From Spirogloea muscicola (Eukaryota > Streptophyta > Zygnematophyceae > Spirogloeales > Spirogloeaceae): DNA of 59,578 nucleotides. Shown here in pieces: positions 1 to 48,945 of this stretch. Each line of letters begins with the position of its first letter. The first letter of the stretch is position 1. The translations under genes and the position numbers were made by a program. The stretch spans positions 64,918 to 124,495 of the forward strand of contig WELB01000316.1 in the NCBI GenBank assembly GCA_009602725.1, written 5' to 3'. Below the pieces are notes generated by a model. That model worked only from the letters and a program-made list of their open reading frames with translations. It searched no databases and was not told the DNA's origin.

Positions 1-300
1 CATGCGCTTGGCCGTCTCGCTGCAGAGGTCCATGGCCCGTGCGCTGCACCTTCGTGCCGGGAGAGCCCTCGCTGCTGCCTCTGGCTCTGTCCAGGGGACC
101 CACTTCCAGGACCCTAGCCTCTCTGATTTGCGGCTGCTTAGCAGGGGTTACTGAGTGATTTGTAGCTGCTTTCTTTCTTTGTCTGCTTTGATTTCTTAGC
201 GCTTCCTCTGGCTTCCTCTGGCCCCCTTCTCGTTCTTTGTTCATTCTCTTTTGGGCTGGCTTGTCCAGCCCCTATCCTCAATAGGCGAGCCCTTTCTTTA
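1..300 (+). mobile_element. LINE (non-LTR retrotransposon) 3' end
   Basis: The first 154 bases encode the tail of a LINE ORF2. It reads MRLAVSLQRS, then an RAGRALAAA stretch, and ends SDLRLLSRGY with a TGA stop at 152-154. The same ending recurs at 18.88, 38.97, 42.0, 42.3, 43.03 and 48.75 kb. A 3' UTR follows, with the hairpin GGGCTGG-CTTGT-CCAGCCC at 253-271 and then the shared terminal module with ATAGGCGAG and CTTTCTTT, fading near 300. The 5' part of the element lies outside the window. There is no poly-A tail. The identification rests on matching the larger copy at 17520-18990. Confidence 0.8.
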
Positions 301-1352
301 CCGCTGAGCCTCCTTGTGCTATTGCTGCTCATGCGGATCAGTCCAAATCTCTAGTGTCCCTTAACTCACCATCGCCCTTGCGTGCTCTAATCCGCAGTCA
401 CCTTTCCTCCTGTGGCACGTCGTGCCAGCTACTGCATGTTCTTGCTGGGCAGGCTCCAGCTCCCCACAGACACTGCTTCAAGTCGGCAGCAGTCTGGCGC
501 GTAGATAGATATTCCCAAAATATCTCATGTGACTATTTGATATATTTTATATTTGCTCGGCAATTCTGCACATTGATGTGGGCTTTGACCTAGACCACGT
601 CAACTCTTTTTGCGTCCACTCGCAGAATTCAAAAAAGAGTAATCCCATTTCTAATGCATATAGTTCCAGCCCTTTCAGACCTTTGTTCATTCCCTTGGGG
701 CTGCCCTCTCACATCCATTGGCTTTCAACAATTGAACTGTTTCTTCATCCTATTGAACTGGCCTGCGCCATTGCCTTACATGGGCTGTTTGCTCGATTTG
801 CGAAGAGCTTTTCTCTTTGAGGCGTGAAAAGACTTCCGGAGGTGGCAATCAAGTTGTCCCCCATGTGGCATCCACGTCGGCTTCTTGGTCGTTAGCCAAC
901 CCGGCAATGCCGTGCGGCCGGGGCAGTCGCTATCACCGGCCTGTCGGTGTTAACCGGCAGTCCGGCAGCCAGTACGTAGTATCACAAAGTTCTTACCGTC
1001 TCTCCACTAGGCCGGCCAGCCGAGATGAGCACGAGTTTGAAGTAACAGCCAGGTGGAGCATTGGCCTTATCTATGAAAATCTAAATATATAAATGGTGCT
1101 GACAAACCCATCCCCTGCGGAGCAGCGGTGAAGCGCAGGGTGCAGCAGCCGCCGTCGCCGCCGCCAGCGCCAGCGCCGGCGCTGCCGCAGCCGCCCGCTG
1201 GACAGACCTTGGCTGCGCAAGCCCTGACCTGCCATTGGCTGCTCGCCGGTCGGCTCGGAGACTGTGGCGCGTCGTCTGCTTCTCGCTGCAACTTTGGACG
1301 CCCTTGTCTCCAGCGAGTACTGGCCGCCTCTGAGACGCTCGAAGCCCTGGAT
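301..1352. other. Non-coding stretch upstream of the GPDH gene
   Basis: I see no supported gene here. A short LINE-tail-like piece (about 680-730, a TTCATTCCCTTGGGGCTGCC-type string) suggests another decayed element end. From about 1100 the DNA becomes GC-rich with CCG runs. That fits the promoter and 5' leader of the GPDH gene starting at 1353, but no TATA box or other motif can be assigned with confidence. Confidence 0.5.
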
Positions 1353-4300
1353 ATGAATGGCGCTGGCCCGGCGCCGCCTCACGACGAGGCGGCCGACGGT
1401 GCCCCTTACGTGGACGGCGCGCCCGTTGCCAATGGCGTCAAGGCCGTGAGGGTGAGCGGGCTCTCTGCACAACACAGTGCAGCCTTAAGCACAGATGGCA
1501 TCTGCTCAGACTGCCCTCACGAGCTTAGCTGGCCAGTCCGTCTCAAGTTCCGCTTGTGTAATGCGCCGCTGTCGTGTGCCAGAGCAGAGTGGAGACGCGT
1601 CCGATAGGCTGGATGAGCTCCGGGAGCTTTTTGGCAAAGCCCCTGGCGACCCCCTCAGGGTCGTTGGAGTGGGTGCGGGTGCCTGGGGCTGCGTCTTCAT
1701 TGGAATGATTCAGGTAACATTATAGACAGTGTATCCGCCCCCATAATTCTTGTCTAAGCAGCAGAGCATAACACATGTAGGCTGCAGGGGGCAACGATGA
1801 TAGGGGTACAATACGGTGCAATGCAGCAGCTGGGCAAGCCCACAGATGGCGCCCCAGCTTTGACTTTTGATATGTTACTGCGCAGTTTGCTAGCTTGTGA
1901 GCTGGCTGATGGCTACCATCTAGCTCGGCGCCGTCTTCTGAGCAGGCTGGCTGTGCTTTGCAGGAAACATACGGTCACTTGGATGACAGAATCAGCGTCC
2001 GGATATGGCGCAGGCAAGCTTGCCTCTGCTCATACTGTCAACTACATCATTTAAACATAAGATTCAAACTGGGTTATTCTTGCTTAAGATATAATACGCT
2101 AAATATCACTGTGCTCAGCAGAGGACAGAACGGGGGATAACACTGCAGCCAAGTCTGAAGTCTTTGCATTTTACTTCTCGTTTTCAAAGAGGGGTTACTT
2201 GCTTGTGCCAGGCCTGGGCGGCAGATGGATAGGGAATTTTCAGAGCACCTCTTCACAGTGATCAACAGCAAGGCTGAGGTTCTAAGGAGGCTGCTTGAGA
2301 ACTGCGCATACTTGAAGTATGTCGAAGCCCGGCTAGGGGATCGTGCCCTGTATGCGGACGAGATACTCAGGTGCTTTCCATTGGCCGTTCAAAGGATGCA
2401 GCTTGTGATCTCTGAGTGCAGCTTGTGTTGATGGAGCTATTTTTCATTTTAGCGAGCACGTCTGGCCTCCACCTGAGCTTCAGTTGGGTTCTTCACCCTG
2501 CTGAGAACACAGGGACGGGTTCTGTGTCAACATGGTGGATTCGCCAATCTGCCCACTCCACGTCGTCACAAACCTCCAGGAGGCTGTCTGGGATGCAGAC
2601 CTTGTTGTCAATGGGCTCCCGTCCACTGAGACACGGGGTGTCTTTGAGCAAATCGGAAAGTATTGGAAGGAGCGGAGGAAGTCGCCAGCTGTGATTATCA
2701 GCCTAGCCAAGGGCGTGGAAGCAGCTCTGGAGCCGGAGCCACACATTGTCACACCTACCCTAATCATACACCAGACGAGTATGCAGCAGCATCCTCTAGA
2801 CAGATGTGGATGACTTGTGGGCATCTTTGAGATTGTTTGGCTCGTGCAGATGTGTCTGTTTTGATTCTCTAATTTACTATTAGTCTAGAGTGTTTGTGCT
2901 AGTGCAGACATGTCATCTATCACCAGTGGTCAAACTTCTCAATCTAGCACCTTAATGAAGACCTCTGTCATGAGCACAACTACACGTCAGCCAGCTCATC
3001 ATGCTACTGTCACTTGAGCAGTGATACATTGATGGCCTGATTAATGTGGCCTATTTGTGAGGGCTGATCATCAGCAGTCTCGGTCTTGCAGCTGGCGTTC
3101 CTCTTGACAACATCCTTTATCTTGGCGGCCCAAACATTGCAGCAGAGGTGTGGAACAAAGAATATGCTAATGCTCGGCTTTGTGGAACAGACCGGTGGCG
3201 CAAGCCCCTTGCCAGCTTCCTGAGGCAACCACACTTCATTGTTTGGGACAATCCTGACCTTGTTACGCACGAGGTCATGGGAGGTCTCAAGAACGTCTAT
3301 GCCATTGGCGCTGGTGAGGCCCTTAGTTGGCTGGCCTTGGAAGGCGAAGCTTGCACGTGCTCCTTTCTGCTCTAAGACTGGGGACGTCATATTGGAGGCC
3401 TTATATTGTGCAGAACAGAACATTTAGTCAATACTGAATGCTTTGGGTATTCACAGCAGCTGCTGACAGCTAATGTGCAGATATGACTTGACCACTTCCA
3501 TATACTTGGCAATCTGCAAGGGCAGGCCTGGTAGCGAGCCTAACAAAGGAGAGCGCGACAAGCAAAGCCGTGTACTTTGCTCATAGCACGTCGGAGATGA
3601 TCTTTATCACCCACCTGCTGGCTGAGGAGCCGGAGAAGCTTGCCGGTCCGCTCTTGGCGGACACATTTGTCACGCTGCTCAAAGGGAGGAACTCCTGGTA
3701 TGGCCAGCAGCTGGGGACTCGGGCCCTGACGCCCGACATGGGCGACAATGTCAAGGGCAAGGGCGTCATTCAGGTACTTGTCAATGGGTATCTTGCACCC
3801 GTGAACTACAAATTTACTCTCTAATACGTATTTTCACAAGCATTCTCACAAACACATCATGTTCCTCTTTTCTCAACAGCAACAGTCTGATGTTCTGTCC
3901 CATCACTGATGTGTACTTCATATTCTGCACGCAGGGAGTTTCTGCTGTTGCAGCATTCTACTGTCTCCTTAGCCAGCCAAGCTTCGGCGTGCAGCACCCC
4001 TCCCGGGATGAGCTTGTACCGCCTGTGGAGTTATGCCCCATCCTTCAGACACTCAATCGCATTCTGATCTCAAGGTTTGCTGCCCTTTCACACATTGTAG
4101 GCCGAGCCACACACTGGTTGCATTTTGAAGCTGTTGGATAGAGATGTCATCCTCCAGCATTGCAGAGCAGGCCCAGTAGGTCCTTGCTTCTTCCTTACTT
4201 GCTGTCCTGTAGGTCTGACAATGAGAAGCTGAACAGAGGCATTGACTTCAATAGGCATAGTCATTGCAGACAGGAGCCTCATTCAATATGTGGTGTGTGC

Positions 4301-4515
4301 ACAATCAAAGTGCAGGCAGTGTGCTCAATTGCTAGCCTTTTGACCTGCTCATCCTTCCACTCCTTGTTGACAGGGTTGCGGAGCCTGAGGCTATTCTGAA
4401 AACTCTGCGGGACGAGAATACATATGATCCTCGCCAGCGTATTGAGATGGCACAAGGCCAGGCAATCTATAAGTCCAAAATTCTTGGTCGGCATCCCTCT
4501 ATGAAAGGACGCTAG
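1353..4515 (+). CDS. GPDHC1: NAD-dependent glycerol-3-phosphate dehydrogenase, cytosolic plant type
   Basis: This enzyme reduces dihydroxyacetone phosphate to glycerol-3-phosphate with NADH (EC 1.1.1.8) for glycerolipid synthesis, glycerol and redox balance. Nine exons are seen: 1353-1451, about 1588-1713, 1964-2013, 2212-2370, 2513-2778, 3092-3313, 3526-3773, 3935-4074 and 4374-4515. All phases agree and give about 483 residues, the usual plant length. The NAD-binding loop is [13 protein letters not shown]. Other family landmarks are [57 protein letters not shown] (containing the catalytic Lys region) and [14 protein letters not shown]. No transit peptide is evident, so a cytosolic site is likely. 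The start at ATG 1353 is the first in-frame ATG of an open exon. Intron 3 has a GC donor (AG|GCAAGC at 2014) instead of GT. The exact acceptor of exon 2 (1585 or 1588) is uncertain by one codon. Confidence 0.95.
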
Positions 4516-5086
4516 TGCAGACCTTGGCAAAAGTGTAGACTTTGTCTGGATAGTGCAACTCATGCATACAGCTCCTTGGTCCTTCATTCCTGGCGCATGG
4601 GCGGGCAACTTTTTGGAGGCTCCAGATGCAAGCAAGATGCACAGTGGCTGTATCCTAGGTGACACAGCTTTATATTTGCCTGTAGCTGATGTCCACTCTC
4701 TGACACCCTCGGAAAGGACTTGGAACGAACTTAGGCAACTTCAGCTCTTCCAACAAAACTTAGGCAACTCGTCAGCAGGCTTCTGCAGTAGCCTTTGCTT
4801 TTAATGGATTCAAGCTCATTAGCCTTGGATATTCACTCCAACAACCTTAGTAGTCACATGACAACACTGGCTACTTTTTGAAGGAGACTGAATTTGAAGA
4901 TAAGAAGCACTGCAAAGTAACAGAGGCTGAGAGATATTTTATAAGCAGTAAATGCCATGAGTGTGGGCATCTCATTGGAATGTAAATGAGAAATTGCTGC
5001 CTACTCACTGGGCTGCTTGTAGCTGGGTGGCCAATATTGTGGGCCAAGCGCAATCCACTCACAGCCATCTGCTAATTCTTCATTGT
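4516..5086. other. Intergenic region between convergent genes
   Basis: This stretch lies between the stop codons of the GPDH gene (+) and the NCBP3-like gene (-), so it should hold both 3' UTRs and poly(A) sites. I saw no ORF, repeat or RNA gene that I can support. Confidence 0.5.
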
Positions 5087-6926
5087 CTACGAGCGATCGT
5101 TTTTCTTCCTCTCTCTCTTCCCGCCTCGATGTCTCCTCCTACCAGTACCTGTGCCAGTGCCTACCTCCTCAACAGCCGTCACCATCGTCTTCGCTCCCAG
5201 CCTGTCCTTCACGCGTCGCAGTTGATCCCCATATCCTGTGCTGAGGACTTCCTCTCTAGAATTGCCTCCCAGCCTGTCCCTGACGCGAGGCCGTCTTTCT
5301 GACAAACTCGGTGTAGCTTCCTCCGGCTCCCATCGCTCAACAGCCTCATTGTTGACCTTACTGCTTGGGCTCATCAACACCTGTGGTGAGACAGCCGACT
5401 CTTCAACCTCCACCTCCCTGTTCTCCACCTTGTTTGCTGGCTCGCACGATGCCTGGGCCTGCTTAGCGGCCTCTGGAGACCCCAGAGGCATGAACGTCCC
5501 GCGCTTGTACGTAGCCGTGCCCCTGCCCTTCACAACGACCGGCGGTATATGCCCATCCTCAGCGACCTTGGCCTTCAAGTATGCCCGGAGGTCTGGGACG
5601 TCAACACGCTGCAGCTTCCTGGCAGTGCCCGTGTCGACGCCCTGCTCCACCTCGTCGGGCGTCGGCGGCAGCTTCGCACCAAGGCGGCTGAAGACCTTTC
5701 CCTGGTCTTGCAGCAGGATGCTACGCATGTCAAGGTTGAGCGCAACCTCCCCGTCAAGGTCGCGGTGCGCCGACTGCCGCCACGGGCTGCCAGTCTGCAG
5801 GCCCCGGGGCCTCTTGCCCAAGGCAAGCTTGTCCGCCACCCCGTTGCTGCCCAGGCTCACGGCAACCGCCGCAAGCCCATCCTTCCCAGGGACCGGCGGG
5901 TTGGGTGGTGCGTCCAGGATGGAAGCCACTCGGAGGCTGATGGGAAATGTCCAGTCGTGCAGCACGAGCGGCTTGCCCTCGTGCCAGGGAGCAGCTGCGA
6001 CATGCAAGCCCACGCAAGCTCTCACCCGGTGGCTCTGACACGAACTTGGGTATTGTGACAAAGTATGGTCTCAGATACGGCGCTGACAGTGGCGAGGCTC
6101 TGGCTCCTCAGCATTGGCAAGCAGCAGGCCTCCAGCTCACCCGAGTCGGGGTCGGCCATCGGCTCGAGCGTGCCCTTGCGGAGCAGTGCCCGCTTTGCGC
6201 TGAACGGGTCCCCAAAGGCCACGTTGCCTGGGCAACGAAGCACAGCGGCGGAGGCTCGTCAGCCCGAAGCGCGCTCCCTTTGTAGCTTCACGTCTGCGCA
6301 AGCTTGGAGTGCGGCGGCAGTGGCAATGGCGGAGGCGCTCACAGGAGCTGGGCGAGACCCACTCCACCGCCACGGGGCTGAAGCCCGTGAAGTAGCCAAG
6401 CACGTCGGCGGTGCGCAGGTGGGGCGAGGCGTGGAGGTGCAGCGCCTCTGCCCGCAGCGGCGTGCCGTCAGCCACGTCCTCGCGCTCGTCGGCGGGCCCG
6501 AGATCGGCGGCGGTGGGCGCGGCGGGCTCTGCGGCGGAGGCGGCGGCCGGGAAGACGGGAAGCGCTGCGCTGAGGCGGCGCCCCGCAGCCACCGCGANGG
6601 CTGCGGCGTTGGCGGCGGCGCTGTTGGCGGCGGCGGTGCAGCTCACGTTCTCGGAGCGGCAGCGGCAGCGGAAGGCCAACCCCGACGACGGCGTCGCGAA
6701 CAGCGGGCTTGGCGGCGGCGACGACGCGGCGCTGGGCCACCGCACTAAGGACTGGGTGACCTTCGCCGAGCGCCAACGGCGGCGCAAGAAGGGGGTCTCT
6801 CTCGGCGACGGCAGCGGCGGCGGTGGCGGTGGCGGCGGTGATGGCGGCGGCGGCGGCGCCGGGCCTCCGCCTGCGGATCTTCGTCGCTGAGGCTCTTCGG
6901 CGTCGCCGCTCGACCGGGGTGCCGGC

Positions 6927-6928
<2 letters not shown>
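5087..6928 (-). CDS. NCBP3: Nuclear cap-binding protein subunit 3 (NCBP3/C17orf85-like)
   Basis: In animals NCBP3 joins NCBP1 (CBP80) in an alternative cap-binding complex for mRNA export. Three exons on the minus strand, 6928-6343, 6227-6141 and 5994-5087, keep one frame and give about 526 residues. Exon 1 ends and exon 2 begins inside the RRM-like signature: ADVLGYFTGFSPVAVEWV, then SPSSC-NVAF. The human protein has the equivalent DVFSYFKEYPPAHIEWL with DDTSCNVVW. Exon 3 has the WHEGKPLVL and LRVASIL segment seen in plant homologues. The tail has repeated [KR]V[KRF][DS]RLG boxes (KVFSRLG, RVRDRLG, RVKDRLG), as human NCBP3 does, and ends basic (RRRHRGGKRERKK). The N-terminal 150 residues are Pro/Ala-rich and weakly supported. 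The start could be ATG 6928 or ATG 6997, or an upstream exon could be missed. One base near 6598 is N. Confidence 0.72.
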
Positions 6929-8551
<1,623 letters not shown>

Positions 8552-9130
8552 AGTGGCCATTGCCGCGCCACTCGTGGCTTGCAGCACGAGTGCTAGCATA
8601 GCACTAGAGCTACTTGTGGTGGATATATGAGAGGTGACACAAAGGAGACGTAGAACTGCATGAGGTTCAGCAAGGCAAAGCTCAAGCAGGCCATTCTGAC
8701 TGTCTGAAACACTGGGACAGGGCTTCTGTGCATATGCCCTGCCCTTATTTGTCGAAGTCGCCAGCACTGCAAGAGAAGCACTGGATTTGTAGGCACATGC
8801 GTAAGAGCCTCCATGGCTTACTTGGTGGCTGTGCCTAATGATGCTTTTAAGGCAGTCATTGCAATCGGTCCTCAATTTCTCCAATATATGATAGCTAGGG
8901 TATCTGATGAGCTCCCCTTTGAAGCAAGAATCATAGCGATGCGGAACATCCCTGTCAAGCTGTATTAGTCAGATCTCGTCGTGCATCCTGAATACAAGCC
9001 AGGAGGATGTTGCTTATCTCAGCATGCTTTTCATATAGATAGTGATGCGATTAAGCCGGACAGACGTCTTGCACCTGCCAAAAGTCGCCAGGCCGTCAGC
9101 TTTGTAACGCGCAGACCGTTCTGTGCCGGC
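8552..9130. other. Non-coding stretch after DDAH
   Basis: This is presumably the DDAH 3' UTR followed by spacer. No ORF or RNA gene is supported. Confidence 0.4.
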
Positions 9131-9790
9131 CCGGCACTTGTACCGAGCTGGATTCGCTTCCGGTGGCCCTTCGCTTGCCCTTGGTGGGCTGTGAATTGCC
9201 CTCGGCTGACCCCTGGGCGGCCCCTCAGGTGGCCCTTCGCAAGCCCGTCCTTCACGAGGTGAGTGGCTCTCCGAAAGAAGAAAGCGCGGCCAGATTGACT
9301 GGTGGCTGGGAAAGAAGGTGCTCGCCCATTGAGAAGAGGGGCTGGCAAAGCCAACCCAAAAAGAATGGACAATGTTCAAAGCCAAAGAAAGAGGTGCTGG
9401 GAAAGGCCAGCCCAAAGGAATGGACAAGGTCTGAAGGAGCCGAAGTGCGAAGGACTAGGACTAAGACATCAGCCAGGGAACGCTCAGTAACCTCTAGGAG
9501 ACAGTTCTTCCAAAATGACAGCAGTGGCTGTGAGAGGCCAGCCCAAAGGAATGGACAAGGTCTGAATAGCAGGATGCTAGTCTTTGAGACGTCAGCAAGT
9601 GGCTTTCAGCCCTTGAGTTAACATGGCCGCCTTTGGTTTTAGGGTTTAGGCTTCTCCTTCTCAATCGGGGGCAATGGCTGTGAACAGCCAGCCCGAAAAG
9701 AATTGACAGAGTCCGAAGCGCTGGAAGCGCAAGGGGGGAGGCAATGAAGGCATGAAGAAAGCGCAATGGAAGTAATGGACGGGAGTAAAT
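9131..9790 (-). mobile_element. Cluster of LINE 3' tails, minus strand
   Basis: Several truncated LINE 3' ends are stacked head to tail on the minus strand. One type-A hairpin lies at 9339-9357 (CCAACCC instead of CCAGCCC, which still pairs as G-U in the RNA). Type-B hairpins, with GGCTG/CAGCC arms, lie at 9526-9543 and about 9676-9689. The stretch 9405-9505 is nearly identical to 42185-42295. It contains the end of an ORF (RGY-stop) and the following UTR. The short module CACCAGTCAATCTGGCCGCG is present in reverse near 9283-9303. No intact coding region is left. Confidence 0.7.
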
Positions 9791-10023
9791 GGTATGATTG
9801 GATGAAGGGAACGGAGGAGAGGCTGGGTCTTGGGGCGCATCCCAGTGCTGCCGTCTCGCCGCGCCGTTTCGCGACGTCGGGAGCAGCTGCGCAACGGGCC
9901 AGCAGCGGCGCGGCGTTGCCCGCTTGCAGGGCGGCCACACCAGCAGGCCCCCCACTTTCGCAGCCTCCCGGCCCCCGGCGCCGCCCGCGGTGCGCAGCGG
10001 CGGCCATGGCGGCGGCCGCCGCC

Positions 10024-10968
<945 letters not shown>

Positions 10969-12160: not shown

Positions 12161-13447
12161 TCAATCATGGCCTGCCATGTCCTCTGCAGCAGCAGGTTCA
12201 GGCTGAACTGGTGGTGCAGCCGGTGGCTGTAGGAGCTCGCCGCTGCGGACCTCGACCACAGTCAGCGCGGCCCTGGAGCCGATGGCACCATCGGGCCCCT
12301 TGGGGATGGTGATGGTCAGGACACCAAGCTTGTGGTCTGCGAGCGCCGCTTCAGCACTGGCGTCTGCAGGCAAGCGGAAGCGGCGCTTGAATGCGCCGAA
12401 GCCCCGCTCCTCAAGGTGCAGACTCCCGGGCTCCTCCCAGGTGTCCAACTCGCGGTGGCCGGCAATGGAGAGTACAACGCTGCCGCCTGCGGCAGCGTCA
12501 GCCTGCAGCTGCACCTCCACCTGCTCGGGCGGCACTCCCGGCAGGTCAGCGACGACGGTGTACACGTCCACGGTCTCCTTGATGTCTATCTTCAAGACCA
12601 TCCCACTCACAGGACCCTCCATGTTGTCCTCGTTGGTGTCACTGCCAAAGTACGGCGGCGGCGGAGGGAACCCGGGCGGCGGAGGGAAGCCGCCAGACCA
12701 GCCGCCAAGGTGCGGTGGCAGGGGCGGCGGATGCGGCGGCCTGCCTGCGCCCGGCCGGTGGGGATGGCCAAAGAGGTGATGATGATGCGGCGGCGGCGGC
12801 CCTGGCGGCGGCGGCGGCGGCGGTCCTGGCGGCGGAAAGGGTGGCTGAGGATTAGACGGCAGCGTGCTCCAGGGGCCGAAGCCGCCGCTGCGCGCGGCGG
12901 CCAGCCACGACGCGTGGCCGCCGCCCAGGCCGCGGCAGTGCTGCTTCCAGGCCTTGCGCCAGGCCCTGAGGTGCTCTGCACGGCGAGGCACACGGACTGG
13001 CTCCGGGCTGTCAAGGACGCCCAGCTGCTGCATGCGGGAGACGTCGAGAAGCACGCCTGGCGGTGGCGGCAGCGGCAGCTCCTCAGAAGGACGAGCCAAC
13101 GACGTCGGGGCGCCGGAGACGGCTGGCGACAAGGACGAGACATTGTAGAAGCAGAGTGGCCCGCGAAGCCGCACTTGCTGGAAGCCGAGAGCCGCCGGCG
13201 CTGCCAGCGGGGTCCGCAGGTCCTCACCTTGAGGCGGGACGGCGCCGTGGCGGCCGCCGTGGTGGTGGTGGTGGTGGTGGTTATGGTGGCGGTGGTGGTG
13301 GCGGCCCGGCGGGTGGTGGCCCGGAGGCGGCGGGGCCATGTCGTCCGACCCGGAGCTCGAGTCCAGCTCCGCGACGCCGCGGAACAGCGCAGGCCTCATG
13401 CCGCCGCGGCGGCTCCGGCCGCCGGCTGAGCGACTCTGCTGCGCGGC

Positions 13448-13478
<31 letters not shown>

Positions 13479-13750
13479 GCAGCGGCGGCGGACGCGGGTT
13501 GGCAATGGGAATGGCGAGTCAGGAGGGGGGAAGGGAGGGAGCGGCGCGGGATGGGCAGGCGGGCTCGCGTGGCAGGCACGGCTGGCGCTCGCGAAGCTGC
13601 CATGCACGCGGCAGAGCAGCCGCGCAGAGGAATGCCGCACTCTTGGACTCCACGTATGGCCGTGGCTCGCATCGGACGGGCACGATCGATACACTCTGGC
13701 GCCAGGACGTGTCGTTCGAGAAGTAGACATGCCGCGAACAGGAAGCGCAT
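12161..13750 (-). CDS. Alpha-crystallin/Hsp20-domain protein with low-complexity N-terminal half
   Basis: The single open frame encodes up to 529 residues. The C-terminal ~130 residues form an alpha-crystallin domain: VVADLPGVPPEQVEVQLQ, then LSIAGHRE, ERGFGAFKRRFRLP and the closing GVLTITIPK strand. Small heat-shock proteins bind unfolding proteins and hold them for refolding. Most are 15-25 kDa, so this one is unusually long. In front of the domain are an Ala run, a His-rich tract (about residues 140-170), and long Pro- and Gly-Pro-rich stretches, some ending in His runs. ATG 13750 opens the frame, but downstream ATGs at 13672, 13603 and 13399 are equally possible, and the first 110 residues may not be translated. 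The C terminus lacks the common I-x-I/V tail motif. The low-complexity part may affect assembly or location; that is inference. Confidence 0.8.
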
Positions 13751-13824
13751 GCCGTGGATAACACGTCACCATCCGATCGTTGCACTTACTTTCCGAGAGT
13801 AGTGATTCCAGATTGCCCCTTCGA

Positions 13825-17519: not shown

Positions 17520-18990
17520 CTACGAGGCAGGCGGCGTGGACGAATTGGTGGGTCAAGAATTGGTGGGCGACGGGGAGTGCTGGTGGCCTCCACTTGGTAC
17601 CAGGCTCCAACGATGCCTAGCTGACATGATTGCTCACCCACTTCTAGAGCAGTCCCCAGCAGCACTGGTGCAATGTACGCTGCCCATCCGTCTCGGTGGG
17701 CTTGGTTGTCGCCCCTTGGTCCGCTTGTGCAGACCAGCGTACCTTGGCTGCTGGGCCCAGGTGGCTTCGTCCATATCTGGACGATTCCTCCTTGGGCAAC
17801 AACGTGTGTTGGCGCCTCACATCAGTACCGTGGTTCAGGGGAGTCTGCCTTTCCAAGTGACTCTCAAAGCATGCCAACAGGACCTCTTTGCCGCATACCC
17901 GCCTCTGGTAAATGAGCCTGTTAGTTTTGCTGCCCGGGCTGACGTTTCTGATGTCAAGGCTCAATCGCGGTTTACCCGTGCTGCAGACGAGCAACCACTG
18001 GAGCATCTCCGGAGTCTCCTCCAAGGAGATGCTCGAGGCCAGGCTCGGCTCCTATCTGTTTCGTCTCTGGGAGCGTGAGTGGCTCCGCGCTTTGCCTTTG
18101 CATGCGGGCTTGCGGATGGAGAATGCTTTGTTTTGCGATGCTATGCGCCGCCGTCTTGGCTTGCCATCCCTGTGCTTGGCAGGGGTGACCCAATGTGAAT
18201 GTGGGCTTATTGAGCATGATGCATTGCTCATGGGTGACCACATGCTCAGGTGTGCCAAAGGCAGAGAGCGCACGGGCTCCCACAACCTCCTACGTGACGC
18301 CATGTATGGCATCGTCAAGGAGGCGGGATATCAAGTGGCGTTGGAGAGCACTGGGGTGATGCCCATCCTCCTCCGCAATGGGGTCCCTCGGACGAGGCGT
18401 GTCGATCTGGTCGGCGTCCCCCTGGGAGGTGGCAAGCGGCTCCTCATGGACGTTGTCCTCACCGACAGCTTCCGGACGAAGGGCCCCATTACTTCTGAGA
18501 CCGGCTACGCTGTGAAGGTAGCCGAACGGAAGAAGCTGCACAAGTACAAGGACCACCCGGCGGGTGATACCTTTTACCCCCTGGCCATGGACATCCATGG
18601 GTGTTACGGGGGTCGGTGGTCCTCGTTACTTTCGCTGCTGGCCTCTCAAGCTGACCAGCGGCGCCGGGAGCAGGGTGCTGCCCTTCCCGGTGGCTCGGTG
18701 CCTTTGGGTCTGGTGTCCTGCTACCGTATGCGACTGTCCATGTCCCTGCAGCGCTCCCAAGCGCTTGCTTTGCACCGCCGCGCTGGTCGCGCCCTTGCAG
18801 CAGCCTCTTGCTTGCGCAGCGGGGTTGCTCTTCCTCCCCTCAGCTCATCTGACTTCCTACTGCTGACACGGGGGTATTGAGGGCGCCCTGTCTGCCTAGC
18901 CTTTGGCTCCGTCATGAACACCTGTATGCATCTGGCTGGCATTTCACAGCCGATTCTTTCATATCAGCAGCCGCTTTCTTCTTACTTGGT
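17520..18990 (+). mobile_element. LINE ORF2 C-terminal half plus 3' UTR, 5'-truncated
   Basis: This is the largest LINE piece here. The upstream frame has a post-RT segment (LPIRLGGLGCRPLVRL, then AYLGCWAQV). Near 18010 the frame shifts by one step, and the second frame runs to a TGA at 18878-18880. It holds a Cys/His knuckle (CECGLIEHDALLMGDHMLRC). A likely PD-(D/E)XK-type nuclease core follows (RTRRVDLVGVP, then LLMDVVLTDSF). The family C terminus is SSDFLLLTRGY. About 100 nt of 3' UTR match 41800-41950 in reverse at high identity, but the terminal hairpin is missing here. The 5' truncation point is close to 17520, between lipoyl synthase and VIH. No poly-A tail or target-site duplication was identified. 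Confidence 0.82.
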
Positions 18991-28018: not shown

Positions 28019-28098
28019 TGTCCTTCATATTGACCTGCGTCTCAACGGTGTTGACTGATACATTTTTCTACTCCTGCTAAAGTATGTTGTCGTACTAG

Positions 28099-32169: not shown

Positions 32170-35607
<3,438 letters not shown>

Positions 35608-38388: not shown

Positions 38389-38789
38389 GGAGCTGGCATC
38401 GGCGGCCGTCACCGCCTCCGACCCAGGCTGCAGCGGCGAGGACGTGGGGAAGCTGCGGGGCACTGGGGGGCTGCCGGCTGCTGCATGCCACGGGGCCGGT
38501 GAGCGAGGCTCCTCCCTCCGCAGCCGACACCGAGCATGAGAGGGGAGGGCAGCGGGGAGAAGGAGAGGTTGGCCCGCCGGAGCTCAGCACCGCCGATGGC
38601 CTCAGCAGGTCCGGCACGGCGAACGGCGAGCTGGGCGGTTGAGTGGGCTAAGGAGGTGGGAGCTGAGAGATGTCTGCAGGGAGAGAGGGAGAGGAGCCGC
38701 AGCGGCTGTGGCGGTCACGGGAGCTCGGCTGCCGCCTGCTGCTGCAGCTCGGGCACAGGCAGTCGGCGCTCGTTTCCTGGCCAGGAGGC

Positions 38790-39470
38790 CCGGCCCCTTG
38801 CGGCCCATTCAGACGTCGTTCGTGCCATTGGGCTGCCCTCTCACGGCCATTGCTTCACGTTGGCAGACGGAAAGAAGGAAGAGCTAGCTGCTCTCCCTCT
38901 CTTCATTTTTGCGCTCCAGCTCCCCAAGTTTAGCTTGTCGGATTTGTTTGTGCTCACCCGTGGGTACTGATGTCACCTTGGGCACCTTGGTTTCGGTTTC
39001 CGTGTTATGCAGCCCTGTTCAGGTTGCCCCAGACTCTGCCTGAACAATCGTCGGCCTCCATTTCATTTCATGCGCCCCGCACGCCTTCTCTCGCGTCGCG
39101 CCCCCCCGCCCGCCGCGCAAGATCTTTGCCCCCGCCCGCCCCCCCCCCCCCTCCTCGCGTTGACCGGCGGCCCGGCGACCGGGCGACCGGCGGGACCAGC
39201 CCAAGCTCGTCGGCGCCTGCGGCCAAACGCCCGTCGGCTGACACTGACGCAGTGCAACGCCATCCCCCCCCCCCCCAGCCCGCCCTCATTAAATTGCGTG
39301 TGAATTCACAGGCTACTGCCTTACACAGGAAGAGCTATTTCTTCTCGGGAGCAGGCGCGCGGGGCGCGTGTAACACTGGGCCAGTTCCCCTGTGGAATAG
39401 CAAATGGCACTGGCCCCTTTGTCCATTCCTTTGGGCTGGCCTCTCACAGCCACCAGTCAATCTGGCCGCG
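38790..39470 (+). mobile_element. Nested LINE 3' ends, plus strand
   Basis: A type-B hairpin at 38831-38848 (GGCTG / CGGCC, with one G-U pair in RNA) belongs to one truncated element. Directly after it an ORF end from another copy reads FSLSDLFVLTRGY with TGA at 38968-38970. Downstream, 39120-39280 has long C-runs. A further type-B tail lies at 39422-39470, with arms 39434-39438 and 39447-39451 followed by CACCAGTCAATCTGGCCGCG. Two or three truncated insertions are stacked. Confidence 0.65.
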
Positions 39471-40751
39471 CTTTCCTCTGGAGTAGTGCCTCGCTACTCT
39501 TCCACAGGGGCAGAAAGTGAGATACACACAGCTTTGCGCATAGCATGCTTGACGCGTCCAAGTGAAGTTTCTTGCATTCACAAATGTGAAGTAGTGGTCC
39601 TAATAGTCCTCGAGGGCAGCAGGGGCTGCTGACTTGTCGCTCAAGGAATTCCGCACAAAACAGGAGACTTGCTACATGCCTTCCAGCAATTTCTGACATG
39701 AAGACAATCACAGAAGTGGTTGTCGAAATACAGAAAGCATTGACAGTGTCAAACTGGTAGTGAATAAGCAGAGCCAGCTTGCTGATTGGTGACTAGTCTT
39801 CAGTCACTTCGCATCAGACGAAAGCTTCGCTTGGCACCATGGCATGGACCTTCTTTGACAGTCTGTTGGCGCCAACAACTGCTACAACCACGCTAGCTAT
39901 TTCTACTCAATTTGTATATTACCACATAACAAGCAAGGTACTCTTTTGTGCATGCACATGCATGCCAAACTAGCTCTCTAGTGGCATGATGCCATCCAAT
40001 GGCCAAAATGACGTAACCGAGAAACATAGCAATCTAAACACACGCTTCCTGTCGTCATTTTTCAGCTTAGAGCAATAGATGATGCTCACTGCCCGAACCT
40101 ATCACTTACTAGGAAGCTCTAGGTGAACGCCTGTGTGAACCTGTGTACAAATACGCTTTGTATGATTTATGCTGGAAGGTGTCTGGCCCTGTTGAGGGGC
40201 ATTGCACTTTGTAAGCCTGATGAACCCATGATCTGTTCTGTAGGCGTCTGTAGGTGGTGTTGACCAATATGGGTTGGTGAAGCCCATCGTTTCTTGTGAG
40301 AGGCAGCCTGTGCTCCTTTCAATCAAGATGGGCTTGCAGTCCTCAGCTGGTGCTTTGTATTTGTCCTTGTGCACAAGTTGGAGGAACCTGCTGACAAATC
40401 AAATTGCCAGCTATTGTCGGTTGCAGTTCGTAATTGAAAATTGCTACTCGATATTGTCATCTGAGGAGTAGCAGTGCGGCATACACAGGAACATCACCTT
40501 CGAGCTTCTGGACACGCCATCCTTGCAGCCGAAACAGCTTCGACTGACTGACTCCACAAGATGATGTTAATCAAGCACTTTCAAGAAGCAATGATGCACA
40601 AAAATGTGAAGAAGATGCAGGTCGCACAGCTTGTCCATGCCAGATATGTATGTAGCGAATCGAAACTCACAAGAGGTGGTACCAGCGGTTGTTTCCAGGT
40701 GACTCGAAGGCAACGGACTGGAGTGCAGGTAGACCATAACGCAGGGCCAAA
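39471..40751. other. Intergenic stretch with no supported gene
   Basis: The stretch is more AT-rich. Short open frames exist on both strands, but none shows family motifs or convincing splice structure. It probably includes the 3' UTR of the small coiled-coil gene that ends at 40752. Confidence 0.4.
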
Positions 40752-41205
40752 CTACGACCTCAACTTCAGTTCCTCAACTTCGTCTTGCAGCCTCGCTACT
40801 TTCTCCTCCATCTCCTTGATGACCACCACATTTTCCTGTCAGACGCCGCTCCCCGACAACCAGATTAAATATTCATACTCAGAGCAAGCACAATCAGCAG
40901 ATTCTCATGCAGTCAGGCATGAAGGGGTGCTGGATTACTGCACAAGCATGCTGAACGGCCCATGGCTGGAGACTGCCACTAGCAAGCTTCTCCTGCGCTA
41001 GCTCCAGCTACATTCCAGCTACCACATGTTCGTTGCTGACAAGCCGCACCTTGATGGCCTGCTCGAAGTCAGCGTCAGGCCCCGTTTGGAGGGCCTCGGC
41101 GAGCTGAGCATTGGACTGGCGCAGGTGCGCCAGGGCGTTCTCGAGACGCGCCTTCTCGAGCTCCAGGAGCGTCAGCACCTGCGGCTCCGCCATGGCCTCC
41201 GCCAT
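40752..41205 (-). CDS. Small coiled-coil protein of unknown function
   Basis: Two exons (41205-41050 and 40835-40752) join in phase and encode 79 residues. The protein is one long amphipathic helix: TLLELEKARLENALAHLRQS, then NAQLAEALQTGPDADFEQAI, then ENVVVIKEMEEKVARLQDEV and a short end with TAG. The pattern S-N-x-x-L-x-x-A-L ... D-x-D-F-x-x-A-I-x-E-N looks like a conserved small-protein family, but I cannot name it. ATG 41205 or the in-frame ATG 41193 could be the start. The clean splice pair and heptad pattern argue that it is real. A role as an adaptor subunit is only a guess. Confidence 0.65.
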
Positions 41206-41689
41206 CCCAAGGCTCAATCGGCAGCGACCGGCGCCGCCGTCTGCGGGCAGCGGCAGCAGCCTCGACTCCGCTCCAGACGGTCCTCTGACTCCACACCGGC
41301 CGCGGGCGCCTCGGCACGAGCCACGGCGGGCGCCTGGAAGGCTTTCCGGACGGCAATAACTGCCCTGGCGCAGCGGCGAGCGGCCGTCGGTGGCTCAGCG
41401 GCGTGGACCTGGTCTGCCGCCTGGACACGGCAGCGGCGGAACCACGTCAGGGCGGAAGCTGCTGTGGCTTCGGTGGGACAGAACCGGCTGCCTTCTGCCC
41501 GCCGGACGAGGCGACCGGATTCGTGCTAGCATTGCGTGCTTCATGAACCGCTCCAACAGTACACTGCGCCCCTCTCAGCTCCCTTGGCATACAAGAGAGA
41601 CGCTTCCATGAGACGCTTCCATTCTGGCCTTCGATTGGCATTCGATTGTTTTAAATACACGATATCTTTGCATGAGAGGGGCCAGTGGC

Positions 41690-42675
41690 TGGGAGAAGAG
41701 AGTGCTCGCCCGTAGAGAAGAGGGGCTGGCAAAGCCAGCCCAGAAAGAATGGACAATTACCAAAGCCAAGAAAAGAAAAGGATGCCGAGCGGCTGCTGAT
41801 ATTAAAGAATCGGCTGTAAACTGCCAGCCAGATGCATACAGGTCTTCATGACGGAGCCAAAGGCTAGGCAGACAGGGCGCCCTTAATACCCCCGTGTCAG
41901 CAGTAGGAAGTCAGATGAGCTGAGGGGAGGAAGACCAACCCCGCTGCGCAAACCAGAATCACTCAGTAACCTCTGCTAAGCAGCCGCAGGTCGGAGATGC
42001 TAGGCTCGTGAAAGTAAACTAGAGGCTGCTGCAAGGCCAGCCCGGCTAGGCAAAGCAATCGCCTGGGACCGCTGTAGGCACATAGACAAACGCATTCGGT
42101 AGCAGGACACAAGACCCAAAGGCACCGAGCCACCGGGAAGAAGAATGAGCTCGCCCATAGAAAGGATGCGCGGCCAGATTGACTGGTGGCTAAGAAAGGC
42201 CAGCCCAAAAGAATGGACAAAGTCTGAGGGAGCCTGAGTGCGAACGACTAGGACTAAGACATCAGCCAGGGAACGCTCAGTAACCTCTAGACAGGAGATG
42301 CAGGTCCGAGAAGCTAGCTGGCGGAAAGACGTCGCCCTGACGGAAGCCGGAGGCCGCCGCCAAAGAAGAAAGTGCTCGCCCATTGAGAATAGGGGCTGGA
42401 AAAGCCAGCCCAAAAAAGAATGAACAGAGTACGAGAAGGGGGCCAGGGGAATGGAGCTTCGACTTCGCCGCCAAAGCTCGGCCTGCGCGTAAGTGAACCG
42501 CGAAGGCGAGGGACCGCTGCATCGCGACGGCATAGAAGAGAAGGGGCTGGCAGAAGCCAGGGAAGGGCTGCACCCTGTTCCCGGCGCCGCTGGTCAGCTT
42601 GAGAGGCCAGCAGCGAAAGTCACGAGGACCACCGACCCAAAGCTGGGGCTCCGTTTTGGGCTCCGTTTCTGGCAT
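41690..42675 (-). mobile_element. Stack of LINE 3' ends, minus strand
   Basis: Reading on the minus strand, there are three ORF-end remnants. Near 42280 one reads FSDLHLLSRGY, near 41965 one reads EPSISDLRLLSRGY, and 41800-41950 is a close copy of 18820-18985. Type-A hairpins lie at 42393-42411 (loop AAAAG on plus) and 41723-41741. A type-B tail lies at about 42150-42210. The segment 42185-42295 is repeated at 9405-9505. In the copy near 41.7-41.95 kb the order ORF end, UTR, hairpin and terminal module is complete, so it shows the family's true 3' end. Order and truncation imply several separate insertions at the same locus. Confidence 0.75.
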
Positions 42676-42689
42676 CTAGTATTCATGCA

Positions 42690-43425
42690 TCGATCAGTTG
42701 ACCATTATGTTTCGACCCGTGGTTATTGAGCGGGTCAATCTGCTGTAGGTTATGTAGATCTTTAGATGTGTTTGCCTTTGTACTTCTTTTGTTTTGTTTG
42801 TACTTTGCCATTTGGCCTACAGTAGTTAGTTTCTAACACACGGAATTTTCGACCCAAAGCTGGGAGAGGACCAGCCCAGGATAAATAATGAACAAAGTCC
42901 CTTGACACAGGGCTTCGCTCTGTGTAGCCCCCATTCTTGGCACGAGCGCTGAACAGTGCCTGGACAGTGACTTGGCTTGGCTTCCAGGAGCCCAGCATCT
43001 CTGATCTGCGGCTGCTTAGCAGGGGTTACTGAGTGTCTCGTAGCAGCTTTGTTTCTGTTACTTAGCGCTTCCCCTGGCCCCCTTCTCGTACTCTGTTCAT
43101 TCTTTTTCGGGCTGGTTGTTCCAGCCCCTATTCTCAATGGGCGAGCACTTTCTTCTTGAGCATGCCTCCCTTACGTTCCATGAAGAAATTGCTAGCCCAT
43201 GAGCACCGCAGGCCTTTCCTCTGGCTCTGGCCAGGGGACCTACTTCCAGGAGCCTAGCATCTCTCATCTGCGGCTGCTTAGCAGGGGTTACGGAGTGGTT
43301 TGTAGCTGCTTTGTTTCTTTGTGTGCTTGTTTTCCTTAGCGCTTCCCCTGGCCCCCTTCTCGTACTCTGTTCATTCTTTTTTGGGCTGGCTTTTCCAGCC
43401 CCTATCCTCAATGAGCGAGTACTTT
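42690..43425 (+). mobile_element. Three LINE 3' ends in tandem, plus strand
   Basis: The first piece ends DHYVSTRGY-stop near 42727, with a GAGCGGGTCA start of UTR as at 48750. The second (about 42960-43150) ends EPSISDLRLLSRGY-stop near 43030 and carries the type-A hairpin at 43109-43127 (loop TTGTT). The third (about 43195-43425) has the same ORF end with the stop codon changed to CGG, and a hairpin at 43383-43401 (loop CTTTT). The second and third are near-duplicates of each other and of 60-300. They lie directly beside the minus-strand stack at 41.7-42.7 kb. Confidence 0.78.
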
Positions 43426-43439
43426 CTTCTACTTTCTCT

Positions 43440-45169
<1,730 letters not shown>

Positions 45170-46758
45170 TGGGAGCAAGTTTCGTTTTCTAGTCATTACT
45201 TTGTACCTAATATTGTTTTTGGGCATGCACCATGGCTTTCATTTTCAAGCCTTACTTGTGTTCACTTGCCTTGTTCACTTGAAGCTCCTTAGTAGTGAGC
45301 AGTACATGGCAATGCCAATGTTCAAGATGGCAAAGTCAGCCCATCTTCACAGCCAGTGATGTGGATGTTGGAGTGTTGACTGTGTATTGCAATCCTGCTT
45401 TGTGACCTTACAGTTGTGAGCGCATGAGATTTATGCAGCTGCCGGTACTCAGCCAGTTGCATATCAGTGCTTCATTTTCTTTCACAAGGCCAAGGATGCT
45501 TCTGAGGACAACAGAGAAGAGGAAGGGGGGGTGTTTTTTATACTACAAATATGCAGGCAACTGTATACATATACGTATACTGCATACATATATATGCATA
45601 GCTAACACAGATGCATGTATCTACTGATATACACATATCACGTGTATGACTGGTATAGTATGATCATTTGAATGTAAAGCATTGCATGTTCGTATACGTA
45701 TATATGCATGTAGAGTGTACATTTGTATATGCCTGAAAATCCATATTTACTTTTTTGAATACATATCTGTGATTATATGTGTATTTATGATGCTTGTATA
45801 GTTCTAACCTGTGTTCAAACGTCTGTAGTGCTATGCATGTAAGTATTGATATATGTGTAAATGTTTACATGTGTGTTATGTATTTGTCTTTATTCGTCCG
45901 ACATAGCGTAAAGTAAATAAGTGGACCAGCGCTTAAGGATACTCAAGCCTTTAAAAAGCATGATTCATTATTTTTTAAAAAATGGTTTGTTAAAGGCAAA
46001 CACTCACTGAATCATAAGAAAGATCGCAAGCAAAAATCTTGTACTTAAGTTGGCTATATGTTGAATAAGCGATCACTCTCTCTGAGTCATTTTAGGGTAT
46101 CCCAAATGCAAATGTTCATGTCTATAAATATATATGTCTACGTGTTTGTGTGTATACGCGTAAACATGTTAATGTGTGGCACGCGAATGTGTATGTACGT
46201 ATATGTGCATATTATGTATATCTGTATGTGTGTGTGTATGTGTACACATGTTAATAAATAGATTTTTTATGCATGCACATGCACATACATATATATAGTT
46301 GCCTGCGGGCTCTTCCACTGTGGGCTGTGATAGGGTTGGAGTCAGTCTGAGGCGCATGGACACATTGGTCCACAATTCAGCAAGGAGCCAGTGTCTGGTG
46401 TACGAAATCTACTTCTGTCAGTAAGAATTGGCATCGAGTGCCAACATGTTAAATTTGTTATGTACACAAACTGAAAGCTCCTACAATCCACAAAGAATGC
46501 GTCTTTTTCTGGTGTCCTTCTCTATGACATCTCTATTTGCCACCAGATTGTGGCAGTACTTCTTGCAATCGCATCAACTTAAACGGATGCCTTGCAATGA
46601 AGCTGTACAATTTGTACAGTCTAAAAGCTCTCACAGTGTCATCTGGTGAAAAGTACTACCTACTGAATAAAAGAGCAATCAGCAGCTATGGTGCAAATAA
46701 CACCATGTCATCAGCAGTTCACTCGACTGTTGTGACCTGCCATGTGCGGTAGCTATTG
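45170..46758. repeat. AT-rich island with TA/TG dinucleotide runs
   Basis: Between two convergent genes, 45540-46300 is very rich in TATA, TATG, TGTG and CATA strings, for example GTATGTGTGTGTGTATGTGT at about 46223-46242. This base make-up is unlike the rest of the window. It reads as degenerate microsatellite. No gene is supported, and the many short frames are chance. Confidence 0.6.
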
Positions 46759-48018
46759 TCAGGACCTATGCTGATTTGCATCTGTTGCCGGAACAGGCCA
46801 CAAAACCTCTGCAGTCGGCCAGGGCGCATCCAACAAGGTGGATGCCCCGATCTTCGAGGCCATGGCCAGCGGACCCCAGCATTCATGCTTGTTATACTCT
46901 GGCAAGTTGCTGTGGAAGTGCACATAAACCGGGGCTTCCTCCAGATCTGCATGAGCAGAATTAGCATGAGGCAAGGATGGCAACCATCACAGAATTACAA
47001 AATATCACGTCCACTGCAAAAGCTACCGTGCACGAGGTCTCTGCCACTTGTGCTCATCCATTGCAATCACTCACCAGGGTGCTTTTCAAAAAGAGCACGA
47101 TCACCATGTAGGAAAGCCTCCAGGACCTGAAATTCAGCCAATATGGAGAAAACATCAAATCAAGTGCAATCCTTGAAGATGCTCAACATACCTGGCTGTG
47201 CACACCTGCCTGATACCGCTGCATGCAGTGGCCATGCAGTGGCAGCCTCAGCAGCTCTGGCCGAATCGCACCACGGGAAGCTCCTTGCGGAAGATGGCGT
47301 AGCGGAGCTGTGCGATGGTGTTGAGCAGCCAGTGGCCGCCACTAATATGGCAGTGGACGTGCAGCGCGAGCTGTCCAGTGATGTTCTGCCATACTGCCAG
47401 CACCTCGTCCCGCTGCAACTTCGAGTACCAGTTGGTGAACTGCATGCAGGGCAACGAGCGTGAGGCAGGCGAGAGTCAAGATCGCCAGCCAGTATCCTCC
47501 CCCAACACCCTGCGCTGTACGACAGCCCCAAGGACCTGGAGAGCCCATGCAGGGGACCAACGGGCGGGTGCCGGCGCCATAGCAGGAGCGCCCACCTGGG
47601 CCTTGTTGAACTCGCGGGAGACGGCGAGCGTCAGCTTGGCGGTCAGGTCCGAGTGCGTCAGCGTGTACGTGCGAGGGTGCTTGTCCACGGCCGGGTGCTT
47701 CTTCTCGTCCACGCCCAGGAACAGCACCCGCAGCTTGTGCGCCTCGAAGATGGCCGGCCCAAACAGCCGCGCCTGCGGGGAACGCGCCACCCACGCCAGC
47801 ACGGCCCTCGGTGCCGGCAGTCAGAGCGACCAGCGCGCTGATCCCGGCGGGCCGCACGGAGCGGAGGCGGCGCCGCCGCCGTCGGCTCGTACCGAGACTG
47901 GCGGCGGTCTCCGCTGCAGCGCCGGCGAGCCCCTCCCGGATCGGCCCGCCACGGGCGCGCCCCTGCCCCACAGGCCGGAGCGGCGGAGGGACACCCTGCC
48001 GGGCGCCGACCTCCGGCC
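46759..48018 (-). CDS. SGR: STAY-GREEN protein (magnesium dechelatase), 5' end in gap
   Basis: SGR removes magnesium from chlorophyll a in the plastid and starts chlorophyll breakdown. Exons on the minus strand are >48018-47893 (partial), 47772-47596, 47439-47272, 47126-47075 and 46946-46759, with matching phases. The first visible part is Arg/Ser/Gly-rich (RRSAPGRVSLRRSGLWGRG), like a chloroplast transit peptide. The core reads ARLFGPAIFEAHKLRVLFLG, HPRTYTLTHSDLTAKLTLAV, WYSKLQRDEVLAVW, LHVHCHISGGHWLLNTIAQL and YAIFRKELPV. It closes with AFLHGDRALFEKHP and PVYVHFHSNLPEYNKHECWG. This is close to land-plant SGR over the catalytic domain. The short C-terminal extension lacks the Cys-rich motif typical of land-plant SGR. 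The start codon lies in the gap at 48019-48644. Confidence 0.95.
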
Positions 48019-48644
48019 NNNNNNNNNNNNNNNNNNNNNNNNNNNNNNNNNNNNNNNNNNNNNNNNNNNNNNNNNNNNNNNNNNNNNNNNNNNNNNNNNN
48101 NNNNNNNNNNNNNNNNNNNNNNNNNNNNNNNNNNNNNNNNNNNNNNNNNNNNNNNNNNNNNNNNNNNNNNNNNNNNNNNNNNNNNNNNNNNNNNNNNNNN
48201 NNNNNNNNNNNNNNNNNNNNNNNNNNNNNNNNNNNNNNNNNNNNNNNNNNNNNNNNNNNNNNNNNNNNNNNNNNNNNNNNNNNNNNNNNNNNNNNNNNNN
48301 NNNNNNNNNNNNNNNNNNNNNNNNNNNNNNNNNNNNNNNNNNNNNNNNNNNNNNNNNNNNNNNNNNNNNNNNNNNNNNNNNNNNNNNNNNNNNNNNNNNN
48401 NNNNNNNNNNNNNNNNNNNNNNNNNNNNNNNNNNNNNNNNNNNNNNNNNNNNNNNNNNNNNNNNNNNNNNNNNNNNNNNNNNNNNNNNNNNNNNNNNNNN
48501 NNNNNNNNNNNNNNNNNNNNNNNNNNNNNNNNNNNNNNNNNNNNNNNNNNNNNNNNNNNNNNNNNNNNNNNNNNNNNNNNNNNNNNNNNNNNNNNNNNNN
48601 NNNNNNNNNNNNNNNNNNNNNNNNNNNNNNNNNNNNNNNNNNNN
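48019..48644. other. Assembly gap (626 N)
   Basis: An undefined sequence run separates the SGR 5' end (left) from a LINE 3' end (right). It should hold the SGR start codon, its promoter, and more of the LINE ORF2. Confidence 0.95.
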
Positions 48645-48945
48645 CATCAGAAAGCTGGTCGAGCCTTAGCTGCTGGCACAAGAGCTAGTCAATTGCCGTC
48701 CGGTATTCGAGCGTCAGCTAGCGACCTCTATGTGCTGACTCGTGGTTACTGAGCGGGTCAGCTTAGCAGCAGGTGACGTACATTTGTCCAATGTGCTTGC
48801 CTTTGTACTTGGCCACACATGGCCTCCCCATCTCTTAATATACACGCATTTTCTTTCCTCGCCTCTCCTTCTCGTCCTCTCCTCACACTTTTTTGGGCTG
48901 GCTTTTCCAGCCCCCATCCTCAACGGGCGAGCTTTCTTCTCCTCC
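48645..48945 (+). mobile_element. LINE 3' end, plus strand
   Basis: Directly after the gap a frame reads KAGRALAAGTRAS and ends SASDLYVLTRGY with TGA at 48750-48752. A UTR beginning GAGCGGGTCA follows, then the hairpin GGGCTGG-CTTTT-CCAGCCC at 48895-48913 and the terminal module CATCCTCAACGGGCGAG. The 5' part is in the gap. Confidence 0.78.

Follow-up and report, generated by a model that had tools for sequence, protein, structure and literature searches.

The 3' ends of a large group of retrotransposons in the alga Spirogloea muscicola carry a short hairpin whose stem is nearly constant while its loop varies. We analysed a stretch of 59,578 nucleotides (nt) from contig WELB01000316.1 (positions 64,918 to 124,495, forward strand), hereafter the window, in which seven such hairpins, GGGCTGG and CCAGCCC around a 5-nt loop, end long interspersed elements (LINEs) that we classify, by reverse transcriptase (RT) and endonuclease motif, as LINEs with a restriction-like endonuclease (RLE). 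We interpret the hairpin as a conserved 3' RNA recognition structure of an R2-like LINE group, with selection acting in part on its sequence, and give this interpretation a probability of roughly 0.6. The hairpin is probably a handle for the element's own copying enzyme, which is a known kind of trick.

All seven stem-loops that an earlier note on this DNA had placed in the window (starting at positions 253, 9339, 41723, 42393, 43109, 43383 and 48895) are present, three of them on the minus strand (Table 1). A search for GGGCTGG-N5-CCAGCCC with up to 2 mismatches returned exactly these seven, whereas 100 dinucleotide shuffles of the window averaged 0.46 matches and never exceeded 3. The G-U-pairing change noted in the copy at 9339 is there as well, its sense strand reading GGGTTGG..CCAGCCC, in which C-G has become U.G. 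The earlier note had assigned all seven tails to type A; five are of this type, whereas the tails at 9339 and 41723 are of a sister type, D (..CTCTTCTCWATGGGCGAGCAC). It rightly put the hairpin near the element end, but the distance measures 25-28 nt (CTATYCTCAATGGGCGAGCACTTTC, with or without the subsequent TTC) rather than about 30. Its count of at least seven copies holds for the window and is far exceeded in the 153-Mb genome (471 contigs), where the exact motif stands at 7,321 places and a reversed control at none; the pattern is palindromic, and equal forward and reverse counts are identical places. With up to 3 mismatches, hairpin plus tail was found at 8,096 places and lead plus hairpin at 6,127. 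The genome also gave 68 matches to light-harvesting proteins (PF00504), which mark a photosynthetic eukaryote.

The hairpin is part of the 3' untranslated region (UTR) of an R2-like LINE superfamily with thousands of copies in this genome, and is found on elements that carry the complete frame from RT to endonuclease. Their protein combines, in one open reading frame (ORF), putative N-terminal zinc-finger-like motifs, an RT, a zinc-knuckle-like motif and an RLE. The ORF upstream of the tail ends in ..SDLRLLSRGY, where the 3' UTR starts. Three loci (L060, L061 and L062) hold single open frames of 1,328, 1,271 and 1,338 codons that end at a hairpin-bearing UTR, counted from stop to stop. In Pfam searches all three contain RVT_1 (PF00078, 7.6e-16 to 8.5e-16), and a profile of 12 of our RT proteins matched R2 best among solved proteins (8.7e-13), followed by one other reverse transcriptase (1.3e-8) and LINE-1 ORF2 (2.5e-8). 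One C2H2-like stretch lies near the N terminus of the three ORFs, with E values of 0.08-0.39, far under the curated cut-offs. Pfam returned no endonuclease family at E<=1 in the three long ORFs and nothing in the C-terminal ORF pieces. Alignment of families A, P and C revealed a knuckle-like CX1CX11-12HX3C in the C terminus, the CX2-3CX7-8HX4C spacing of a CCHC knuckle before the RLE being absent from all three. After the knuckle follows RVDLV..LLLDVV..KX2KY, with KELKY in A, KLHKY in P and KLRHY in C, which we matched by eye to the RLE descriptions in PMC5678591. In an AlphaFold model of the 842 residues from RT to C terminus (12 sequences; mean confidence score, pLDDT, 41.4, which is weak and gives only a hint in the RLE part), the RLE part runs helix, strands, helix, strand, with the second helix ending in the lysine motif and 10-residue means mostly of 60-80. 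An ORF with RT and endonuclease bears out the earlier description of the elements as LINEs, and a Helitron or foldback identity was rejected, the hairpin standing on RT- and RLE-bearing elements whose copies are variably 5'-truncated. The R2 clade proper fits poorly because insertions are dispersed: the 7,321 places have diverse flanks rather than a single insertion site in the 28S rRNA gene. Separately, the top RVT_1 matches of the genome are about 160 amino acids (aa) long, several of them near-identical with open frames of more than 1,200 codons; judged from length only, they are probably recent elements of the long terminal repeat type, apart from this LINE group.

Hairpins also mark the tails of related families. 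The ORFs of families P (window 17912-18975) and C (window 48645-48860) are related to that of A, with identities over aligned parts of 48-53% for P and 35-46% for C, and both families have tails of their own. Nine BLAST tail queries (A, D, B, E, G, P, C1, C2 and H), which miss badly changed copies, found 10 to 99 copies each in the sequence examined, all from this one genome and from loci partly picked as hairpin- or LINE-rich. In every family but H the hairpin at the consensus end beats shuffles (p 0.003-0.07), and Fisher's combination gives 1.5e-6 over families that are not independent. When tails were anchored on the ORF by protein match, irrespective of the hairpin, it was present in 37 of 40 A, 18 of 20 P and 18 of 20 C tails. 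Two positives are exceptional: the hairpin at L073 sits in another, antisense insertion, and L104 has the D type. The seven misses comprise two N-runs (L100, L113), four with other sequence (L067, L072, L123 and L143, by eye) and one changed arm (L142). In a comparison of one copy per family, identity among A, D, E, B and P is 60-80% for lead plus hairpin (shuffled 45-50%) and 43-61% for the UTR from stop codon to lead (41-50% shuffled), with A-B highest for the UTR; the family C block lies near background (41-58% vs 41-45%).

Within A and D, constraint on the stem is seen at the level of source lineages. The comparison used 75 distinct A/D tails, obtained by removing 5 of family E from a set of 80 distinct full tails. 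Letters found in at least 3 copies were taken as changes of source lineages and rarer letters as decay after insertion, and for the final stem count the arms were placed within each sequence. Only 2 of 14 stem columns vary among sources, against 4 of 5 loop columns (p 0.017; 68 tails with 5-nt loops) and 30 of 47 other columns (p 0.0017), in keeping with the earlier statement that the loop varies while the stem is kept. The stem is also better kept than its direct neighbours, of which 19 of 35 columns vary (p 0.013). A 56-tail alignment gave 24 of 47 for the other columns, with p values of 0.017 (loop) and 0.016 (other). Decay after insertion is equal, with rare letters at 0.026 in the stem and 0.021 elsewhere (p 0.41). 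Because source columns differ while decay rates are equal, source lineages are constrained and dead copies unprotected.

Tails without function could be alike through a recent split of families or an exchange of 3' ends, the stem being kept by chance. The closeness of A and D, the non-independence of columns and families as samples, and the weaker contrast under another alignment all speak for such an origin, which we nevertheless hold to be very improbable. Against it, A and B do not exceed background in their ORF ends (52%, control 52%) while their lead plus hairpin reaches 73% against 50%, and the stem varies less at source level than its neighbours, with equal decay.

A number of results weigh against a selected recognition hairpin. 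The hairpin pairs in 95.4% of cells of the 56-tail alignment (19 of the 75 tails, near-duplicates or partials, were omitted, including the window copies at 253, 9339 and 48895), and none of its seven pairs is changed on both sides in these 56 tails. With the lead/tail helix added, there are 2 double-changed pairs against 3.0 in shuffles, with a score of 0.092 against 0.098, and RNAalifold on the tails likewise found no covariation. Genome-wide, pair 4, the only pair counted, shows U.G or C.A singles at 766 places and U-A doubles at 4; among 100 of the 766 that were listed, 87 are of the U.G kind by loop orientation, and 83 of these have the D loop CTTTG. A further 100 mismatch-free tail copies, listed from 7,548 copies with up to 1 mismatch, include 76 intact stems, 12 beginning within the hairpin or at its base (one doubtful) and 12 changed stems, 4 of which are kept by G.U and none compensatory (by eye). 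There is thus no excess of pair-keeping changes, one of two outcomes that had been named beforehand as refuting the hairpin, and the compensatory changes that characterise stems of stringent-type LINEs are missing. A compensatory T-A to C-G change at the fourth pair between P and C appears in a hand alignment only, MAFFT leaving the arms unaligned, and we do not claim it. The covariation test has little power, however, because the stem hardly varies among sources. Beyond covariation, two stem changes occur at source level, and one of them, G to U at pair 1 in family D', disrupts the outer pair. An alignment with four D-family rows off by one base, which the final count avoids, gives 4 of 14 stem columns (p 0.11 vs loop, 0.031 vs other), and at higher thresholds p values of 0.22 or 0.086 vs other; the contrast depends on alignment and threshold. 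The hairpin of family H does not differ from shuffles (p 0.455). Within A/D, conservation of the lead is similar to that of the stem, and the 25 nt past the hairpin are partly kept between families (50-88% vs 43-48%), so that the hairpin is not the sole conserved part. One A tail, the full 3' UTR of L042, took a different fold (z -0.56). Finally, 56 upstream flanks revealed no recognisable short interspersed element (SINE) with this tail; the sample is small, and its recurrences, judged by eye, were other tails, LINE UTR or LINE ORF ends.

Alternatively, the 3' signal may be read as primary sequence, the protein or target annealing requiring a 70-nt string (lead, GGGCTGG, CAGCC, GGGCGAG) whose inverted repeat folds without the folding being selected. 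In favour of this, the stem shows no compensatory changes, lead and tail in A/D roughly match it in conservation, and A, B, D, E, G and P have one and the same stem core, GGCTG/CAGCC, in their consensus tails. Yet the loop, which lies at the centre of the block, is free to vary among sources, and its length ranges from 4 to 8 nt between family consensuses (in our own pairing) with both arms staying in place. Moreover, the other source-level stem change, C to U at pair 4, stands opposite G and keeps the pairing, and family C has an inverted repeat of other sequence, GGCC/GGCC, at a similar distance. A signal of primary sequence is an unlikely explanation, if one with an appreciable chance of being right.

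Under the recognition hairpin that we prefer, the element protein would bind the hairpin as well as the conserved lead (TGTYCATTCTTTTT) and tail, and binding would place the 3' end of the element RNA at the nick, where copying would start. Contacts to stem bases as well as to shape might then hold the stem nearly unchanged, even in pair-keeping ways. What the earlier note had proposed, a 3' RNA structure read by the element's own RT, is upheld as to a conserved hairpin near the end and not as to covariation; reading by the RT is an analogy. The structure may extend beyond one hairpin. Ten 3' regions were folded one at a time. In two A tails the lead pairs with the tail around the hairpin (z -3.85 and -4.19), one D tail shows the same pairing (z -2.35), and six others range from -0.10 to -1.14, L042 being the tenth. 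The consensus lead/tail duplex beats shuffles in A (p 0.024), with p 0.148 in D and 0.22-0.78 in seven other families. Since only A beats shuffles, an outer helix was rejected as a general feature, but there may be one in family A, for which the picture of a single hairpin would be incomplete.

The copies themselves record how they were made. They share the 3' end, while truncation at varying 5' points has left lengths between several kb and 29 nt. Direct repeats of at least 6 nt flank 13 of 58 copies, against 4.07 in a control of re-paired flanks, and repeats of at least 10 nt flank 3 of 58, against a control mean of 0.16; an earlier, cruder rule had given 9 of 61 copies, without control. These 5' truncations, junction repeats and common 3' ends fit target-primed reverse transcription as in LINEs. 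Poly-A was absent from all 26 ORF-anchored A tails with a readable end, as the earlier note had described, the 3' flank being TC-rich for about 6 bases and then mixed. A GC-rich stem near the RNA end of copies without poly-A could also serve 3'-end formation or stability, as a terminator or end-protecting stem, instead of template recognition. We consider this quite unlikely: about 25 nt of conserved sequence follow the hairpin in place of a terminal U-run, and the hairpin persists alongside family-specific tails and a shared lead, which would suit a protein-RNA pair.

TTC directly follows 35 of 58 copies. Copies form head-to-tail clusters, at 9312-9435, 41697-41841, 43069-43430 and 48750-48940 in the window and at other genome loci; in the first of these, a D copy lies within the hairpin of a B tail with a duplication of TTTCCCAGC (by eye). 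A tail lies within 100 nt upstream of 22 of 56 copies, in the same orientation in 19 and opposite in 3 (p 0.00086), and downstream of 19 of 58, with orientations of 8:11; where loci overlap, the copies may not all be independent. This suggests that new copies land behind the TTC-rich ends of older tails. A wider picture, in which co-resident R2-like tail classes (A/D/B/E/G, P and C1/C2) with co-evolving protein and hairpin, a constant stem rather than loop, same-orientation landing behind older TTC-rich tails and head-to-tail arrays together make a self-targeting LINE with a stem-read handle, is tentative, and we doubt that it is correct as a whole.

Table 1. Features of the window (loops in sense orientation)
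Feature	Position	Strand	Basis
C-terminal end of type-A LINE ORF (..LRLLSRGY, stop 152-154)	1..151	+	sequence; L044/L050, with longer ORF, end alike
Hairpin, type A, loop CTTGT	253..271	+	motif search
Hairpin, type D, G.U variant, loop CTTTG; D copy within type-B tail	9339..9357	-	motif search
Type-B tail piece with related hairpin, interrupted by D insertion	9396..9435	-	tail comparison
Type-E hairpin GGGCTG..CAGCC	9676..9694	-	tail families
C-terminal ORF piece, 322 aa, related LINE family P, putative restriction-like endonuclease motifs	17912..18880	+	protein alignment
Family-P hairpin GGCTG-GCATTTCA-CAGCC	18934..18951	+	tail families, folding
Further LINE tail, family H	38953-39092		tail families
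Type-B hairpin GGGCTG-GCCTCTCA-CAGCC	39433..39451	+	tail families
Hairpin, type D, loop CTTTG; insertion behind family-P tail	41723..41741	-	motif search, flanks
Family-P hairpin	41812..41829	-	tail families
Hairpin, type A, loop CTTTT	42393..42411	-	motif search
Further LINE tail, family C2	42658-42850		tail families
Hairpin, type A, loop TTGTT	43109..43127	+	motif search
Hairpin, type A, loop CTTTT; lead and tail also pair in predicted fold	43383..43401	+	motif search, folding
Family-C1 hairpin GGCCA-CACA-TGGCC	48811..48824	+	tail families, folding
Hairpin, type A, loop CTTTT; insertion directly behind family-C1 tail	48895..48913	+	motif search, flanks

Tails of family H end in GCGC-rich repeats (TGCGCCCCGCGCGCC in other copies). 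Elsewhere, the window holds two host-like genes on the minus strand, one with an Hsp20 domain (12161-13747, 2.7e-12) and one with importin-beta/HEAT pieces (57476-59491, 8.4e-45). An Rfam search of the window gave 0 matches, hence no rRNA there. Pure A runs of 122, 122 and 109 nt (10025-10146, 32675-32796 and 43954-44062) stand in GC-rich surroundings, and two of them adjoin N gaps (10147-10968 and 32207-32674); the A runs look like assembly artefacts.

How R2-like LINE proteins choose their own RNA also matters in practice, since R2 proteins are in use for transgene insertion (PMC11331408). Among the titles and abstract openings listed in a literature search, with most subscription journals outside its coverage, we saw none on a 3' hairpin in an algal RLE LINE. 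If our interpretation is correct, structured 3' recognition would extend to RLE LINEs of an alga, and a short hairpin with many natural relatives within one genome would offer a small template signal that is easy to test. It would also mean that recognition can leave a stem almost no room to covary, a caution against covariation as the sole test of LINE tails.

UnaL2 and ZfL2-1/2 of fish encode an endonuclease of the apurinic (APE) type, unlike the algal elements, and RandI/Dualen also has an APE domain, of which none was seen here. The algal elements resemble the R2 group of RLE LINEs (R2, NeSL, R4, CRE, HERO and Utopia) in a single ORF, an RT nearest R2 among solved proteins and a zinc-knuckle-like motif, and they share the KX2KY of the RLE (PMC5678591). 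They differ from this group, whose target habits are described in PMC4640811, in being dispersed and mostly followed by TTC, not inserted in ribosomal DNA, in their short 3' hairpin, and in the knuckle, CX1CX11-12HX3C as against CX2-3CX7-8HX4C. R2 requires its 3' UTR (PMC4176376). With the stringent LINEs UnaL2 and ZfL2-1/2, which need a 3' stem-loop, the algal elements have in common a conserved, family-specific tail with a stem-loop near the 3' end and no poly-A (PMC4176376); in ZfL2-2, however, the loop carries protein specificity, whereas the algal loop varies and the stem is constant. In Chlamydomonas, tails are shared between LINEs and SINEs (L1-1_CR, and RandI with SINEX), and the RandI families tabulated in PMC3747384 end in simple repeats, unlike the tails described here. 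A conserved, covarying 3'-end hairpin also occurs in monocot L1 LINEs and ZmSINE2, with a conserved CGAG 3' of the L1 hairpin (PMC3747384); the A/D tail past the hairpin (e.g. window 43128-43150) holds CGAG too, four bases that may agree by chance. The monocot hairpin varies its stem bases with compensation and conserves its loop and 3' flank, and the algal hairpin does the reverse.

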